Assembly (NCBI GenBank): GCA_030407315.1
Contig: JALQPE010000012.1
Span: forward strand, 62,001-126,000
Length of the DNA: 64,000 bases
Direction: 5' to 3'
DNA from: Asparagopsis taxiformis
Lineage: Eukaryota; Rhodophyta; Florideophyceae; Bonnemaisoniales; Bonnemaisoniaceae
Made by a program: the position numbers and the translations under genes. Below, one piece after another: positions 17,570-24,115 of the stretch (position 1 is its first letter; every line of letters starts with the position of its first letter). The notes under the pieces are model-generated. The model did not search any database, had not been told where the DNA came from, and saw nothing but the letters and a program-made list of their open reading frames with translations.

Positions 17570-19369
17570 TCAATTAGTAGCAATCATAGCATCCAGTCGT
17601 GCTGCAAGGGCGCCAAGTTGATCGGAAACAGCTCCAATCTTATTAACAGGTTCCTCGAAATCCAGGCTGACGTCCACCTTTCGCGGTTCTCTGTCTAGAG
17701 CAGCCTTCACATTTGCAGCCTTTGTAAGCTTCTCAGCTGTCTCAAGTTTCGCTTTCAGTACGGTAATTTCCTCGTCACGATTCGCAAGTGCTTCAGTTAG
17801 AGATGTGATTTGCTGTGCACGAGATTTGTCATTCTCTTTAGCATCTGACAGCGATTGTTCCAAATCTCGTATTCGTTGAAGAGCCGTCACAAGCTCTGCG
17901 GCGGATTTATCGTACGAAGGGAGTTGGTCTGTCGTCACGGAGAGAGCCGCCTGTAGTTCGGCTGTGATGGATTTTGGCGTGAGTGCGGATGGCAGTGTAT
18001 TGTTCTGGGAGATTGAAAGTGGATCCTCCACAGTAGCTGAAGTCATTTCCATTGCCCCACTATCAAGAATTGATTGCTCTTCTTGCTTGTCCGAATCCAC
18101 TTCCGTTACAGCTTTTGACTCCAATGCATCAGGTTGTTCTGGGGTAGATTCAACATCGAATTTGTCGTCGGAGGGCATTTGTTCTGTAGCCTCTGGTAAC
18201 GCAAGCTGCTGTTCCACCGGAGGAGATCGCGGCTTAGGCATGGACAAAGGTAGCTCTGGTTCCAAACTTGGAAGCGGTTCTTCTGTATGCATGGACACAG
18301 GTTCCATCGGGATTTTCTCAACAACTAGCGGCTCTGTATCCAGCGTCTTCGGAACAGATGGTTTCGGTTTCGCAGTCGGCATGTTGTCATCCAGCTCAAT
18401 AAGACTATGTTCTACAGGAGTACGCCCAAATAAAGTGGCACAATCCCACATGAAAACCGTACCATCCTCACAGCCCGTTACTGCAAAGTCGGAGTTTCGA
18501 CTGACAGCAACGGCAACAACGGAATCGTTATGTCCCTCATAAACATGACAAGTTCCGGCATCATCATCCGTAAGCTTCCAAGCGCGGAGCGTTGTATCTG
18601 TAGAACCGGACAGTGCAAAAGAGCCATCGGATGCGGCTGCGACGCCCCAAACACGATATTCGTGGCCACGGAAAACGTGACGTTCAGATAGTGTTGCAAG
18701 GTCCCATACACGCACGGTTTTGTCACCTGCACATGATAGCAAAAGTGGAGATGGAGATGAAAGCAACGCGACGTCATGGACCCATCCCGAATGACCCGTG
18801 AAGGTATGAATAGGAGTGGTGGCTGATGCACGGACGTCCCATAATCGCACAGTCTTATCGCGACCGGCAGAGGCGACTATAGTAACCGGCACATCAGCTT
18901 CGGAGGAGGAGGCTAGGGCAACAGCGCGTGTTTCATAGCGGTGGCCTGTTAGTTTGGCAACACATACGCGCGTCTCAGGATCCCAGCAGCGAACGGTTCC
19001 GTCGCGACCGGATGTAGCTATGAGAGAGGATTCGGAGAGGGCGGCAATTCCGGTTACGTCATCTCCACCGTGCGCGGCCGGTACGGAATAGACGAGGGAG
19101 AGTTTTGGTGAAGTATTGTAGCGAGAGAAGGCGCCCTTGGCGTCTGCTGTGTAGATAGTGGTTTCGGAGGGGAATGCGAGGGAAGTTAGGGATAATGCTT
19201 TATGAAGTGTTGTTGCGCGCGGGAGAGATTGATGGGACAGGGGCGTTGGCGGGTCGTGCGGTGGAAGAGTGTGGAGGGCGAGGTAGCTTTGATCGGCGGC
19301 GGCGACGAGTTGACGGGAGGATGGAGAGAGGGCTATGGCGGACACGGGGTGCGTCGAGAAGTCTGGCAT
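17570..19369 (-). CDS. WD40-repeat protein with C-terminal coiled coil
   Basis: 599 residues from ATG 19369 (MPDFSTHPV). The frame extends upstream but without another ATG. Residues ~1-330 form a seven-bladed-type propeller with clear WD units: 'SGRDGTVRCWDPET', 'SAGRDKTVRLWDV', 'SCAGDKTVRVWDLATL', 'SGSTDTTLRAWKL', 'TGCEDGTVFMWDCATLFG'. An acidic, Pro/Glu/Ser-rich linker (~340-455) follows, then a coiled coil of about 100 residues (~460-560, 'AELVTALQRIRDLEQSLSDAKE' onward) and a short conserved-looking tail. The arrangement suggests a scaffold that oligomerises through its tail. The specific family is not recognised. Start is 297 bp from the divergent BED-fusion gene. Confidence 0.85.
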   Translation of the reverse strand: MPDFSTHPVSAIALSPSSRQLVAAADQSYLALHTLPPHDPPTPLSHQSLPRATTLHKALSLTSLAFPSETTIYTADAKGAFSRYNTSPKLSLVYSVPAAHGGDDVTGIAALSESSLIATSGRDGTVRCWDPETRVCVAKLTGHRYETRAVALASSSEADVPVTIVASAGRDKTVRLWDVRASATTPIHTFTGHSGWVHDVALLSSPSPLLLSCAGDKTVRVWDLATLSERHVFRGHEYRVWGVAAASDGSFALSGSTDTTLRAWKLTDDDAGTCHVYEGHNDSVVAVAVSRNSDFAVTGCEDGTVFMWDCATLFGRTPVEHSLIELDDNMPTAKPKPSVPKTLDTEPLVVEKIPMEPVSMHTEEPLPSLEPELPLSMPKPRSPPVEQQLALPEATEQMPSDDKFDVESTPEQPDALESKAVTEVDSDKQEEQSILDSGAMEMTSATVEDPLSISQNNTLPSALTPKSITAELQAALSVTTDQLPSYDKSAAELVTALQRIRDLEQSLSDAKENDKSRAQQITSLTEALANRDEEITVLKAKLETAEKLTKAANVKAALDREPRKVDVSLDFEEPVNKIGAVSDQLGALAARLDAMIATN

Positions 19370-19666
19370 AATGAAGAAGGGACGATGGTTTGGCTTATCG
19401 GCGGCGACTCGCGATGTGGAAAGCAGTCGAGTTGAGAGCAATCAACATCTGAAGATGACGGTGGATCGACCGTTGGACAAAATCAGATGCTGGAGAATTG
19501 GCAAATGGAGGAATGACAAGTGTATGTTTGTGTGTTCGGCAGTTTTAATTGCAAGTTGATCGACGCCAGCAGCCGCGTCCGAAATCAAATCGTTGGCAGT
19601 GAATTACAAAGCGCTCGTACAATTTACTCGACCTTTGGCGCGCTATTCAACAACTCGCAACACACA

Positions 19667-22336
19667 ATGGATGACGAGAAGCATATCTTACCCGCCGTTA
19701 AACCACCGCGCATTATTGTCGAACACTTCGACATTGCCTCCTATAAGATCGACCAGGCGCATGGCTACGTGGAAGCTGATTGTCAGCATTGCGGGGCAAC
19801 CATAAAGGGCCAAAAGAATGTCACGTCAAACTTTATCCAGCATATGCGCCGTCGTCACTCCGAAGCCTACGATCGATTCGCCGCATCATCTCAACCTCGC
19901 GTCAAACGTCCCCGTCTTTCCAACACGCCATCCAAGCCGGTTCCCGCCCAAACTCCGACCACACCCGTCCTGCAACCCTTCACACCACCAGTTCGCAATC
20001 CATCCAGTCCCGTCCTCGCGCGCCCAGAGCTCACTCTGGAGACAGCCCTCGTGTCCGCGACCTACCGCGCCGCCGTCCGTACTCCATGCGATCCAGCCGC
20101 TCGCCTTTCAGCCATTACCAATTGTCAGCTATACATCAAGCGCGAGGATCTGCAGGTAGGCTCTTCACCGATATTTCGTGCAGCGTATAACTACCTCGCA
20201 GCAACACCGACATCGCGCGCTGGTGTCGTCGCATCCGGCCCGACTGCATTACCGCTCGCCGCCGCCGCTCACAAACATTCCAAACCGTGCTTTATCTATA
20301 TTCCGCTCACGGCACCCACCGCATTGCGACGAGCCCTCGATACCTTTGGTGCCAAGTTCGAATCCACTGGCGACACACTCGCGGAGACTGTCGCTACCGC
20401 TCAGAATCGCGCCAAGGAGACTAACAGAACGTACGTTGACCTATCCGGTTCCCTGCGTCCTGGTTTCACTGATGCTGTTGCTGGGTACGCGACGCTTGCT
20501 CTGGAGATTCTCCAACAGCGTCCTCATGCAGATCGCGTTTTTCTCGCAGGCGGTAATAGCCCGCTTTTCGCCGGATTGTCTGCAGTCTTACAGCGCTTGG
20601 GCCGCGGCGTGAAACTCGTAGGTGTTACACTTCGCGGCGAATCCCGGGAGGAATGGAGCGCATATGCTGCCGCTGTAGTTGAAATATCACACGATGAAAT
20701 GTGCGCTGGTGTCAAGCTACTCTTTGAAGATTGCGATAATTGTCTACTTGAGCCGTATGGTGCCGTATCCGTCGCAGGTGCTATACGATTTGCTCGTGAA
20801 AATAAGCTCAACCATGAGAGACTTGTGTGTATAGTGTCGGATTCACTGCGAGGATTTGACGCGCTGGAAATGGTTACTCGCCGGGCTTCAAAAGCAGATG
20901 GTAGCCGCTGCCTATTGTGTGTGAGAAAAGCGGGTGAAGCGGCCACATTAGCACCGCTCATGCGAGAGCTTCGCGGTACAGCTGGTGGTCGTGCGCGGCT
21001 TACTGGCGTGCGATTCGGGGGAACATGGCCTGTTCTTCTGGGTCTAGCCTGTGATGATACTACTACTGCTGCCGCCCATGTAGCTAACCTTTTGTCGCTA
21101 GGTTATCGTGCATCGGACGTTACGGGGAGCTTACACGAATGCGATGCAGAGCTTTGGCAGAGGGACGAAGGCGAATGGGCGTTGTTCCGCGTCGAGTTGA
21201 CAAAGAACACTGCATCTGTGGTGGAATTTCTAGCCGCAGAAAGAGAATTGCCTTTCCGTCGGGTTTCTTTCGAAGACGATGGCTCTGCTACTGCGAAACT
21301 TGTAGTCGGGACGAAAGGCGCTGACTGGCAGATCGAGGCGCTAGAGACCGAACTTATGGGAAAAGCACTCTCTGTGGAAAGGATCTCTCCAAGTATTGGT
21401 GGTCTCTCGATTATGGGATGCGGGGTTCCTGTGCTAGAGGAGGGAATACCAGACCTTGCCCCTGCGGAGGGCGCAGAAGGCCAAGGTTTAGTGGCTGCAG
21501 AAGGCACGGAATTACCTGTAGCCTATGTAGAAACAGATGGAGTAGAGGTTGGAGTTGCAATAGTAGGTACAAATGAGGATCCGAATGGACAAGTCGGACA
21601 GGAAGTTGTCGAGAGACAAGAAGCGACTGAGGGACATGAAGCGCAAACCATGCAAGAGGGGCAGGAAACAGCAGTGGTTGAAAGCGGGCATACAAACCTG
21701 GAAGGACAAGAACATGAAGAGCAGCAAACGCAAGAGATACAAGAGGATGGTAACGGTATTCACGACAATGGCAATGCAAATCTACAACACAACGAAACAC
21801 AAATTGGAGTTGTCACACATGGCAACGAAACTACTAGTGGGGTTGAAGTACGAGAGAACCAGACTATCCAAGCCACACATGGGGACGGCATACAGCATAA
21901 GGTTGAAGTACAAGAAGGAAATACAACCCAGGGAGTTGGAGTGGCCGGTAATATTGCCGACGCCGGTGGAACCGAAGGCGTTGAAACTAATGTAGTTATG
22001 GCTGAGGATGGTGGAGATCGAGGGGTGCACGCGGCGAATGGTATCGTTGCAAATGAGGGAGAAGGTACAATTGGTAATGTAGGGCTGGATACCGAGGGTG
22101 TTGTAATCACTGAAGTGGATGGATCTGTAGTTGGTGGACAAGTCGTGATGGAGAGTGTTGATGAAGGTGATGGTGGAGCGGATGGATCTTTGGAGGCAGG
22201 GGCTGCAGCGAGACTAGACGCGGATCTTGAGCGTGTGGCACAAGCAGATGCTATGGTAGGATCTGGTGAAGGAGAAGAGGCGGCAGTGGCAGCCGTTGCT
22301 GCTGTTGAAGCGATTCACGTACCAGCAAGGACATGA
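19667..22336 (+). CDS. BED zinc finger fused to a catalytically dead threonine-deaminase fold
   Basis: 889 residues from the ATG at 19667 (ACAATGG context; the earlier frame has no ATG). Residues 20-66 are a BED finger: C39, C42, H59, H64 (CX2C-X16-HX4H). Residues ~125-430 align through their length with biosynthetic threonine deaminase (fold-type II PLP): 'LYIKREDLQ' then 'RAAYNY', 'ALEILQQRPHADRVFLAGG', 'LVGVTLRGES', 'EPYGAVSVAGAIRFARE'. But the PLP lysine of SFKxRGA is Ile169, the SxGNHxxG loop reads SGPTALPL, and the phosphate-binding GGGG is GNSP, so PLP chemistry is not expected. Two ACT-like regions follow (~440-520 and ~540-610), as in the allosteric IlvA enzyme. Residues ~640-889 are Glu/Gln/Gly/Asn-rich and acidic. 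Inference: an amino-acid-responsive DNA-binding protein. I know of no such described fusion. Confidence 0.8.
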   Translation: MDDEKHILPAVKPPRIIVEHFDIASYKIDQAHGYVEADCQHCGATIKGQKNVTSNFIQHMRRRHSEAYDRFAASSQPRVKRPRLSNTPSKPVPAQTPTTPVLQPFTPPVRNPSSPVLARPELTLETALVSATYRAAVRTPCDPAARLSAITNCQLYIKREDLQVGSSPIFRAAYNYLAATPTSRAGVVASGPTALPLAAAAHKHSKPCFIYIPLTAPTALRRALDTFGAKFESTGDTLAETVATAQNRAKETNRTYVDLSGSLRPGFTDAVAGYATLALEILQQRPHADRVFLAGGNSPLFAGLSAVLQRLGRGVKLVGVTLRGESREEWSAYAAAVVEISHDEMCAGVKLLFEDCDNCLLEPYGAVSVAGAIRFARENKLNHERLVCIVSDSLRGFDALEMVTRRASKADGSRCLLCVRKAGEAATLAPLMRELRGTAGGRARLTGVRFGGTWPVLLGLACDDTTTAAAHVANLLSLGYRASDVTGSLHECDAELWQRDEGEWALFRVELTKNTASVVEFLAAERELPFRRVSFEDDGSATAKLVVGTKGADWQIEALETELMGKALSVERISPSIGGLSIMGCGVPVLEEGIPDLAPAEGAEGQGLVAAEGTELPVAYVETDGVEVGVAIVGTNEDPNGQVGQEVVERQEATEGHEAQTMQEGQETAVVESGHTNLEGQEHEEQQTQEIQEDGNGIHDNGNANLQHNETQIGVVTHGNETTSGVEVRENQTIQATHGDGIQHKVEVQEGNTTQGVGVAGNIADAGGTEGVETNVVMAEDGGDRGVHAANGIVANEGEGTIGNVGLDTEGVVITEVDGSVVGGQVVMESVDEGDGGADGSLEAGAAARLDADLERVAQADAMVGSGEGEEAAVAAVAAVEAIHVPART

Positions 22337-22567: not shown

Positions 22568-24115
22568 ATGAAACTCCTTGTCCACCGCGTCGTTGAGTTT
22601 GGCGAGCGCGTCGTCCTCGTTGGCTCGACTGACCGTCTAGGAAGGTGGAAAGTTCCAGCTGGACAATATTGCACCTGGCATGAAGGTCACATCTGGAAGG
22701 CAGAAATCCCAGCAGCCCCCTACCCAACTCGCTTCGAGTTCAAGTATTGTGTTGTCTCTAATACAGGAGAACAAAGCTGGGAAGACGGTCCAAACCACGC
22801 CATAAACCTCCCAGAAGCAGCCCCATCCACCCTGACACTCACATGGGACAACGGCTACGAACACGTCCTGCACCCCTCTATTCTATCTGACGCAACGCCG
22901 AGCCCGCCACCCACACCCTCATTATCTCGCCCGCCCGTATTATCACTCGCTCAAGCGGCGGTGAGCCTAGCGAATGGCGCTTCCAGTGAACAGGTTACTT
23001 TCAGAATCAAGTACGCTCTACAATCTGGCGAACGCATGTACATCGTCGGCTCAATTCCAGAGCTTGGCGCATGGAATAAAATGAACTCCCCACTCATGCG
23101 TGCCAGCAATAAACGGGACTTCTACGAATTTTCCTTCCGTCTTCCCAGAGATGAGGCACATGAACAGTTTGAATACAAATATTTCACCCGACGACAGGAT
23201 GGCTCTCGGAGATGGGAGGGGGGTGAGAATCGCATTGCAAGACCATTTGAAAAGGATGCGCCAAGAGACGCGCCGGAATATGGCAATCTCTTGTGGGATG
23301 ACAGATGGGAGAAGATACGATTCGATTTTAGCATCTACTATCCGACCAAGGAATCACAGGTGATGAATGTTACAGGGGATCTGCCTGAGATTGGTGCATG
23401 GTATCAACCGGGTCCGACGCCTATGCATCTCGGGCCCATGCAAATGTTGGAGACCGATGTGGAGGGACGAAAGTGGTTTTTGTCTGTGTGGACCAATCCA
23501 GATCAGAAGCCGTTTTCCTACAGATATATTGTGGTGGATTCGGTGACCAAGCAAGAATTGTGGGAACGTGAGCCGAATAGACAGGCACAGTTTGACGAAA
23601 AGACCGTTGTAAATAGTGTACATACACTTCGAGATCTCAACTTTGTCTCCGAGATGCACTTTGATCGTGTGCCACCAAACATGTTCATCGGGCCGTATCC
23701 ACAGACGGCGGCAGATGTGGACGCTATGGCAAAGGGCGGCGTCACGGCTGTATTCAACGTCCAGACGGATGAGGACTTTAAACATCGTGCTATTCAATGG
23801 AAATTGCTCATGGATCGGTATAAAAAACACGACATCAAGGTTGTGCGATACCCGATTCGCGACTTTGATAGAGACTCATTGCGGGCGCGACTGCATGGTG
23901 CTACACATGCGCTGGACGATTTACTGCAGACGGGTAGACAGGTGTATATCCACTGCACGGCTGGTATGGGACGTGCACCAGCATGTGCCGTGTCTTACTT
24001 GTGCTGGGTAGAGAAGATGGCTCTTGTAGATGCTGTTGCATACGTCAAAAAGTATCGCAAAGTCGCAGTACCGAATGTGCCTGTGCTCGAACAGGCGCTG
24101 CAGGAGCCATATTAA
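22568..24115 (+). CDS. Laforin-like phosphatase with three CBM20 domains
   Basis: 515 residues. Three starch-binding CBM20 modules: residues ~1-98 ('ERVVLVGSTDRLGRWKV'), ~137-240 ('ERMYIVGSIPELGAWNKMNS') and ~250-352 ('SQVMNVTGDLPEIGAWYQPG'), each with the conserved GxxxxLGxW core and a later W/E-rich strand. A dual-specificity phosphatase domain follows (~358-515) with active site H462-C463-TAGMG-R469-A-P. The 'CTAGMGRAP' loop is the laforin/SEX4 glucan-phosphatase signature. Red-algal laforin removes phosphate from starch granules so they can be degraded; red algae keep starch in the cytosol, and no transit peptide is visible here, in agreement. Vertebrate laforin has a single CBM20, so three is unusual. 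It starts 231 bp after the BED-fusion stop. Confidence 0.9.
   Translation: MKLLVHRVVEFGERVVLVGSTDRLGRWKVPAGQYCTWHEGHIWKAEIPAAPYPTRFEFKYCVVSNTGEQSWEDGPNHAINLPEAAPSTLTLTWDNGYEHVLHPSILSDATPSPPPTPSLSRPPVLSLAQAAVSLANGASSEQVTFRIKYALQSGERMYIVGSIPELGAWNKMNSPLMRASNKRDFYEFSFRLPRDEAHEQFEYKYFTRRQDGSRRWEGGENRIARPFEKDAPRDAPEYGNLLWDDRWEKIRFDFSIYYPTKESQVMNVTGDLPEIGAWYQPGPTPMHLGPMQMLETDVEGRKWFLSVWTNPDQKPFSYRYIVVDSVTKQELWEREPNRQAQFDEKTVVNSVHTLRDLNFVSEMHFDRVPPNMFIGPYPQTAADVDAMAKGGVTAVFNVQTDEDFKHRAIQWKLLMDRYKKHDIKVVRYPIRDFDRDSLRARLHGATHALDDLLQTGRQVYIHCTAGMGRAPACAVSYLCWVEKMALVDAVAYVKKYRKVAVPNVPVLEQALQEPY

Follow-up and report, generated by a model that had tools for sequence, protein, structure and literature searches.

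What might be the role of a protein in which a BED zinc finger is joined to a threonine-deaminase fold stripped of its catalytic residues? The question is raised by a single uninterrupted ORF of 889 aa (P0001) on the forward strand of the window, i.e. the whole 64,000-nucleotide stretch of Asparagopsis taxiformis DNA that was analysed. Its parts are as follows:

19667..22336 (+): whole ORF P0001, with BED finger, dead threonine-deaminase fold and acidic tail; relatives share the architecture
19706..19861 (+): conserved N-terminal block containing the BED finger, residues 14–65; mean pairwise identity 0.82
19775-19861 (+): zf-BED match with zinc ligands C39, C42, H59 and H64; Pfam E 1.8e-7
19904..19921 (+): KRPRLS, a basic stretch resembling a nuclear localization signal (NLS), residues 80–85; from the sequence pattern
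19925..20023 (+): poorly conserved linker, residues 87–119; identity 0.23, low model confidence
20024..20866 (+): dead PALP core (fold type II PLP enzyme), residues 120–400; from Pfam and fold
20159..20191 (+): former Schiff-base loop, GSSPIFRAAYN, with Ile169 (codon 20171-20173) at the lysine position; from the family alignment
20234..20257 (+): former SxGNHxxG loop, now SGPTALPL; from the family alignment
20552..20563 (+): former GGGG phosphate loop, now GNSP; from the family alignment
20837..20848 (+): former SGAN site, now SDSL; from the family alignment
20894..21136 (+): ACT-like region 1, residues 410–490, without P-G loop; from fold and alignment
21020-21031 (+): G-x-W-P, residues 452–455, inside ACT-like region 1; invariant in the dead family
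21164..21391 (+): ACT-like region 2, residues 500–575, without P-G loop; from fold and alignment
21434..22333 (+): acidic tail, residues 590–889, with 61 D/E, 7 K/R and 1 aromatic residue; from composition, in 10 of 14 rows

Pfam assigned the BED finger to residues 37–65 (E 1.8e-7) and PALP to residues 137–392 (E 1.6e-30) of P0001, with no further family at E <= 10. The top NCBIfam matches were threonine ammonia-lyase IlvA models, the best at 131.4 bits against a cut-off of 577; scores so far below the cut-offs are expected of a diverged IlvA relative. P0001 has the fold type II PLP core of threonine deaminase, and in a structure comparison its predicted fold was colinear with IlvA across the catalytic core and both ACT-like regions. 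An earlier, sequence-only reading of this DNA had described a BED finger joined to a dead threonine-deaminase fold in a frame without frameshift, with zinc ligands C39, C42, H59 and H64 and with Ile169 in place of the Schiff-base lysine. The open frame and these residue positions agree with ours, the fusion was confirmed by Pfam, the fold match and 14 relatives, and the comparison with IlvA that had been proposed as a check gave the colinear predicted fold.

The same reading named three lost PLP sites (the lysine, SxGNHxxG and GGGG); all three losses turned out to be family-wide, and SGAN and ADG have gone with them. The Schiff-base position holds I (7) or V (5) in all 12 dead rows covering it, versus K in 50 of 50 covering rows (3 gaps) among the 53 canonical red IlvA rows. 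The N of SxGNH is gone from 12/12 covering dead rows and present in 53/53 canonical red rows. GGGG has become GN[AS]x, and SGAN and the ADG loop have disappeared, in every one of the 14 dead rows, each of these three motifs being intact in all 53 canonical red rows. KRED is retained in the 12 dead rows that cover it, and N297 is invariant in the dead family. Judged from these residues, PLP chemistry is gone from this threonine-deaminase fold.

Two protein searches, each of which scored roughly 8000 candidates sharing most words, delimited the family. The single-sequence search gave 14 relatives at E <= 4.9e-83 and the profile search the same 14 at E <= 3.9e-194, the next match of the latter being a PALP protein at 6.2e-15, after which the list runs to several proteins named threonine dehydratase. 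P0002, from another record, is 99% identical to P0001 and was excluded from alignment A1 and from all counts taken from it; P0007, from Agarophyton chilense, is the sole dead-family member with a species name. By precomputed Pfam assignments, 9 of the 14 relatives carry both zf-BED and PALP, so that the search for this domain order in other genomes, also proposed earlier, showed the fusion to recur; the other five begin inside or after the finger. One relative, P0009 (a EukProt record, whose accession we take to be transcriptome-style), carries the core and, in the same frame, the C-terminal edge of the finger. That the protein might be a chimera of two genes, produced by assembly or annotation, is next to negligible: no point in its favour was found, and against it stand the recurrence of the fusion in 9/14 relatives, P0002 in its separate record included, and the starts of the other five, inside or after the finger. 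Chimeric assembly was rejected because the fusion recurs.

Since the rewritten sites are common to the 14 relatives, they are not a one-off decay. In the family alignment, mean pairwise identity is 0.84 in the finger, 0.82 in the block of residues 14–65, 0.58 in residues 66–86 including the basic stretch, and 0.54 in the core; it falls to 0.38 and 0.35 in the ACT-like regions, the lowest values among the folded parts, and to 0.23 and 0.24 in the linker and tail. P0001 and P0002 differ at 9 residues, 7 of them among the 305 of the tail, one in the 281 of the core and one in the 184 of the ACT-like part, with none in the finger and basic stretch (0/86) or in the linker (0/33). As the sequence-only reading had supposed, the loss appears to have been kept by selection, since the same sites are rewritten throughout a divergent family whose most conserved part is the finger.

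The BED assignment rests on the Pfam profile and the ligand pattern, the searches with structure and against the PDB having given no significant match. The zf-BED profile (PF02892) scored 31.5 bits against a curated cut-off of 20.6, covering profile positions 17–44 of 44; the BED piece alone scored 34.4 bits, and 10 of the 14 family members matched the profile at E <= 1. BED fingers bind zinc through C-x2-C and H-x(3-5)-H; P0001 has C-x2-C-x16-H-x4-H, and the ligands are found in 9/14 rows, the remaining five beginning inside or after the finger. The AF2 model of residues 10–84 has a mean pLDDT of 86.0, and in the full model pLDDT is below 50 across residues 78–122, the linker zone. Foldseek with the BED model gave no match at E <= 0.001 (best E 0.16), phmmer with the finger against PDB sequences gave nothing below E 0.39, and the structure matches listed by VIA-align were taken up by the enzyme core, which makes them uninformative for the finger. 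A script found KRPRLS-like patterns in 11 of the 14 rows; P0008 has KRPKLS by eye, and P0014 and P0015 do not reach this position. From this pattern and the conserved finger we infer that the protein is probably a nuclear regulator of the BED type. P0012 and P0013 both start at or just before QVTSNFIQH, in the middle of the finger, where the frame of the window gene is open; these starts are consistent with an intron within the finger in their lineage.

When the finger was used as query against its own genome it matched only itself; BED matches at E <= 10 numbered 81 in the genome. Among them are many (e.g. L006-L016) that repeat one another in score and in the length of the open frame (562, 613, 618, 641 or 646 aa), perhaps transposon copies. 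The genome's top BED match (L005) had a longest ORF of 263 aa among those of at least 250 aa, from which nothing clear emerged.

The genome (141 Mb) contains one copy of the BED-dead-IlvA gene, one motif-intact IlvA (contig C83, 665 aa, PALP 9.9e-82, with two Thr_dehydrat_C stretches) and a further PALP protein, serine-racemase-like, on C2283. Agarophyton chilense likewise has a dead copy (P0007) and a motif-intact IlvA (P0056). Canonical IlvA sequences were drawn from 8000 scored candidates as the best 120 of 7996 matches. The red IlvA grouping is our own and comprises the own-genome copy and P0042-P0092 (52 rows, used for identity comparison); with P0126 it has 53 rows (used for the 80-row tree and the motif counts), of which 21 are in the 42-row tree and 9 carry an organism name or one inferred from the label. 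The bacterial rows are P0093-P0107 (15 rows, 10 of them in the 42-row tree, 2 with an organism in the name). The position of the own-genome IlvA in the tree points to a red alga as the source of the window. Neither tree included the partial P0014 and P0015, land-plant enzymes or other eukaryotic ones, and the long-branched P0009 was omitted from the 42-row tree.

In the 80-row tree all 12 dead rows fall into a single clade (SH-aLRT 100) among red IlvA rows, with a stem 8.45 changes per site long. The 11 dead rows of the 42-row tree also form one clade (100/100), on a stem of 6.65 changes per site, within a supported group (97/94) that contains the non-Cyanidiales red rows. For both trees the tool warns of long branches meeting and of an odd letter make-up in several dead rows. 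A single origin of the dead family is thus supported by both trees; its branching point, and with it a duplication strictly within red IlvA, is not, since a single clade of canonical red IlvA was not rejected by the AU test (p 0.358), the dead stem is long and the trees carry these warnings. For P0010, a dead member, and for P0066, an IlvA, the longest contig is given as 11003 bases; if the two sit side by side on the same contig, as they might, this would point towards tandem duplication. A two-pattern scan for a prokaryotic relative gave 30 stretches, none of which tblastn confirmed.

The acidic tail had been read as a possible activating region. It is present in 10 of the 14 rows of A1 and missing from P0010-P0013; in P0007 it is mildly acidic (18 D/E versus 12 K/R), and each of the ten tails has one or two aromatics. 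An acidic activating tail as a feature of the family thus did not hold up: since P0010-P0013 lack it and that of P0007 is weak, the tail cannot be the common output device, and an activation role shared by the family is unlikely.

The effectors of IlvA bind in its ACT-like half, where the P-G glycine, in the loop between the first strand and the first helix of the ACT domain, serves ligand binding. In the dead family this regulatory half is recognised only by the family profile and the fold; Thr_dehydrat_C (PF00585) was not matched at its cut-off in P0001 and appeared in 2 of the 14 members (best E 0.0054). The P-G loop of region 1 is found in 0/14 dead rows versus 50/53 canonical red rows, and that of region 2 in one dead row (P0011) versus 52 of the 53 canonical red rows. 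None of the 14 dead rows retains EFNYRY; FHYRNHG keeps its final G in 11 and its YR in 4 of them, and a G-x-W-P motif, which the four canonical IlvA rows compared do not have, is invariant in region 1. Low identity of the ACT-like regions is by itself weak evidence, since a drop is also seen in canonical IlvA (0.58 and 0.60 versus 0.74 for the core in red rows; less marked, at 0.69 and 0.73 versus 0.75, in bacterial rows); the argument lies in the motif loss. A conserved beta1-alpha1 glycine is described for ACT domains in the available part of one source (PMC3173338), and inhibition of E. coli IlvA by Ile and its activation by Val in that of another (PMC3901761). The proposal of an IlvA-derived ACT-like sensor therefore stands as to the fold and is weakened as to Ile and Val. 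Sensing of the old kind, in which the ACT-like regions would still bind Ile and Val (or threonine) and control the finger, could draw on the colinear fold of both ACT-like halves, the response of E. coli IlvA, the P-G retained in region 2 of P0011 and the partly kept FHYRNHG; with the P-G loops and EFNYRY lost, however, and with the ACT-like part the least conserved folded region, control of this kind via the ACT-like sites is unlikely.

The explanation that we slightly favour, at a little better than even, is a nuclear DNA-binding regulator in which a BED finger is combined with a dead IlvA core that would act as a scaffold for oligomerisation and may have a refashioned pocket. A copy of IlvA would have been duplicated, the duplicate would have acquired the finger and a nuclear signal, and catalysis would have been lost with the oligomeric fold retained. 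IlvA is a dimer or tetramer, and it is from this state that we infer a dead fold holding the fingers together; the oligomer would let several fingers jointly bind repeated DNA sites, and the rewritten, conserved former active site may stabilise the fold or bind a new ligand or partner that tunes DNA binding. Some domesticated transposon fingers serve protein contact, chromatin or genome-defence work, and the finger might do so here instead of controlling promoters. The 81 genomic BED matches, many of them identical in score and frame length, fit transposon copies as a possible source of fingers; this finger, however, matches nothing else in its own genome and is the best-conserved part among the relatives, and we regard such a role as rather improbable. 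An enzyme with altered, lysine-independent chemistry could explain why two former catalytic loops are conserved, but it would have to work with the lysine, the N of SxGNH, GGGG, SGAN and ADG all lost and the phosphate cup gone, and is very improbable.

A sensor for a new metabolite, bound at the rewritten former active site and tuning DNA binding, deserves more weight, though we still consider it doubtful. Within the core (mean identity 0.54), the former Schiff-base loop (0.72) and GGGG loop (0.71) exceed the mean, N297 is invariant, and the fungal regulators QutR, GaaX and TanX offer a precedent in the portion of the source available (PMC10512348). Against this, the conservation of the former Schiff-base loop is equalled by 24 of 271 core windows and that of the former GGGG loop by 38 of 273; it may reflect folding. 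None of the rewritten sites falls in the best-kept core stretches, GYATLALE (0.84) and KRED (0.82), and identity at two of them, the former SxGNH (0.44) and SGAN (0.53), does not exceed the core mean. A bolder version, about which we are equally doubtful, is that duplicated threonine deaminase has given rise to metabolite-controlled transcription factors in red algae, the pocket acting as receptor for a new ligand and a tetramer presenting several BED fingers; if this were true, metabolism would be read directly at promoters. The protein offers an opportunity to distinguish cleanly between reuse of an enzyme pocket as a receptor and its reuse as a scaffold only.

IlvA of E. coli (1tdj/9d2q) and P. 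aeruginosa (8y1j) has the same colinear core and two ACT-like regions, but the dead protein is without the Schiff-base lysine, the GGGG loop and the P-G loops and in addition carries a BED finger, often together with an acidic tail. The canonical red IlvA proteins (on C83; P0056), which the dead clade adjoins or nests among in the trees, share the domain order of the enzyme part but have intact catalytic motifs, with an N-terminal extension in place of the finger. BED-finger transcription and chromatin proteins and hAT transposases share the PF02892 zinc finger, and we know of none with an enzyme-derived partner domain of the threonine-deaminase kind. Nor do we know of an enzyme core in the plant bHLH factors that carry an ACT-like domain; these, as far as the portions of the literature available go, reuse the ACT-like fold for dimer contact in a transcription factor with a different DNA-binding domain. 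Few cases of a biosynthetic enzyme turned DNA-binding regulator are known to us.

Among the open-licence papers listed, none was recognisable as describing a protein that combines BED with threonine deaminase, in keeping with the earlier remark that no described protein of this architecture was known, and the word BED is absent from the available portions of two papers on red-algal transcription factors (PMC12567131, PMC8304369). The fungal QutR, GaaX and TanX likewise went from biosynthetic enzyme fold to transcription regulator: according to the part of the source available, they share domains with the AROM enzyme, the working hypothesis being that the protein, though inactive, continues to recognise the inducer (PMC10512348). 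They differ in deriving from another enzyme and pathway and in acting, as far as that text goes, on an activator of the Zn(II)2Cys6 type that is a separate protein; in the present case the finger belongs to the same chain. Pseudoenzyme regulators are thus already known as a kind, and it is the combination of BED with dead IlvA that is, to our knowledge, new: an entire enzyme fold, its regulatory half included, kept without its chemistry and fused to a finger beside an intact parent copy. The family would give red algae a lineage-specific set of regulators.

Two neighbouring genes may be mentioned. A divergent gene for a WD40 protein (17570-19441, reverse strand, 623 aa with a mechanically assigned ORF start) lies 225 bases from the ATG of the BED-dead-IlvA gene, and the two may share a promoter; a promoter scan of 19442-19666 found nothing, its patterns being bacterial and hence uninformative for a eukaryote. 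On the other side, 22568-24115 (forward strand) encodes a protein with three CBM20 starch-binding stretches and, after them, a dual-specificity phosphatase domain; it presumably resembles a laforin-type glucan phosphatase.
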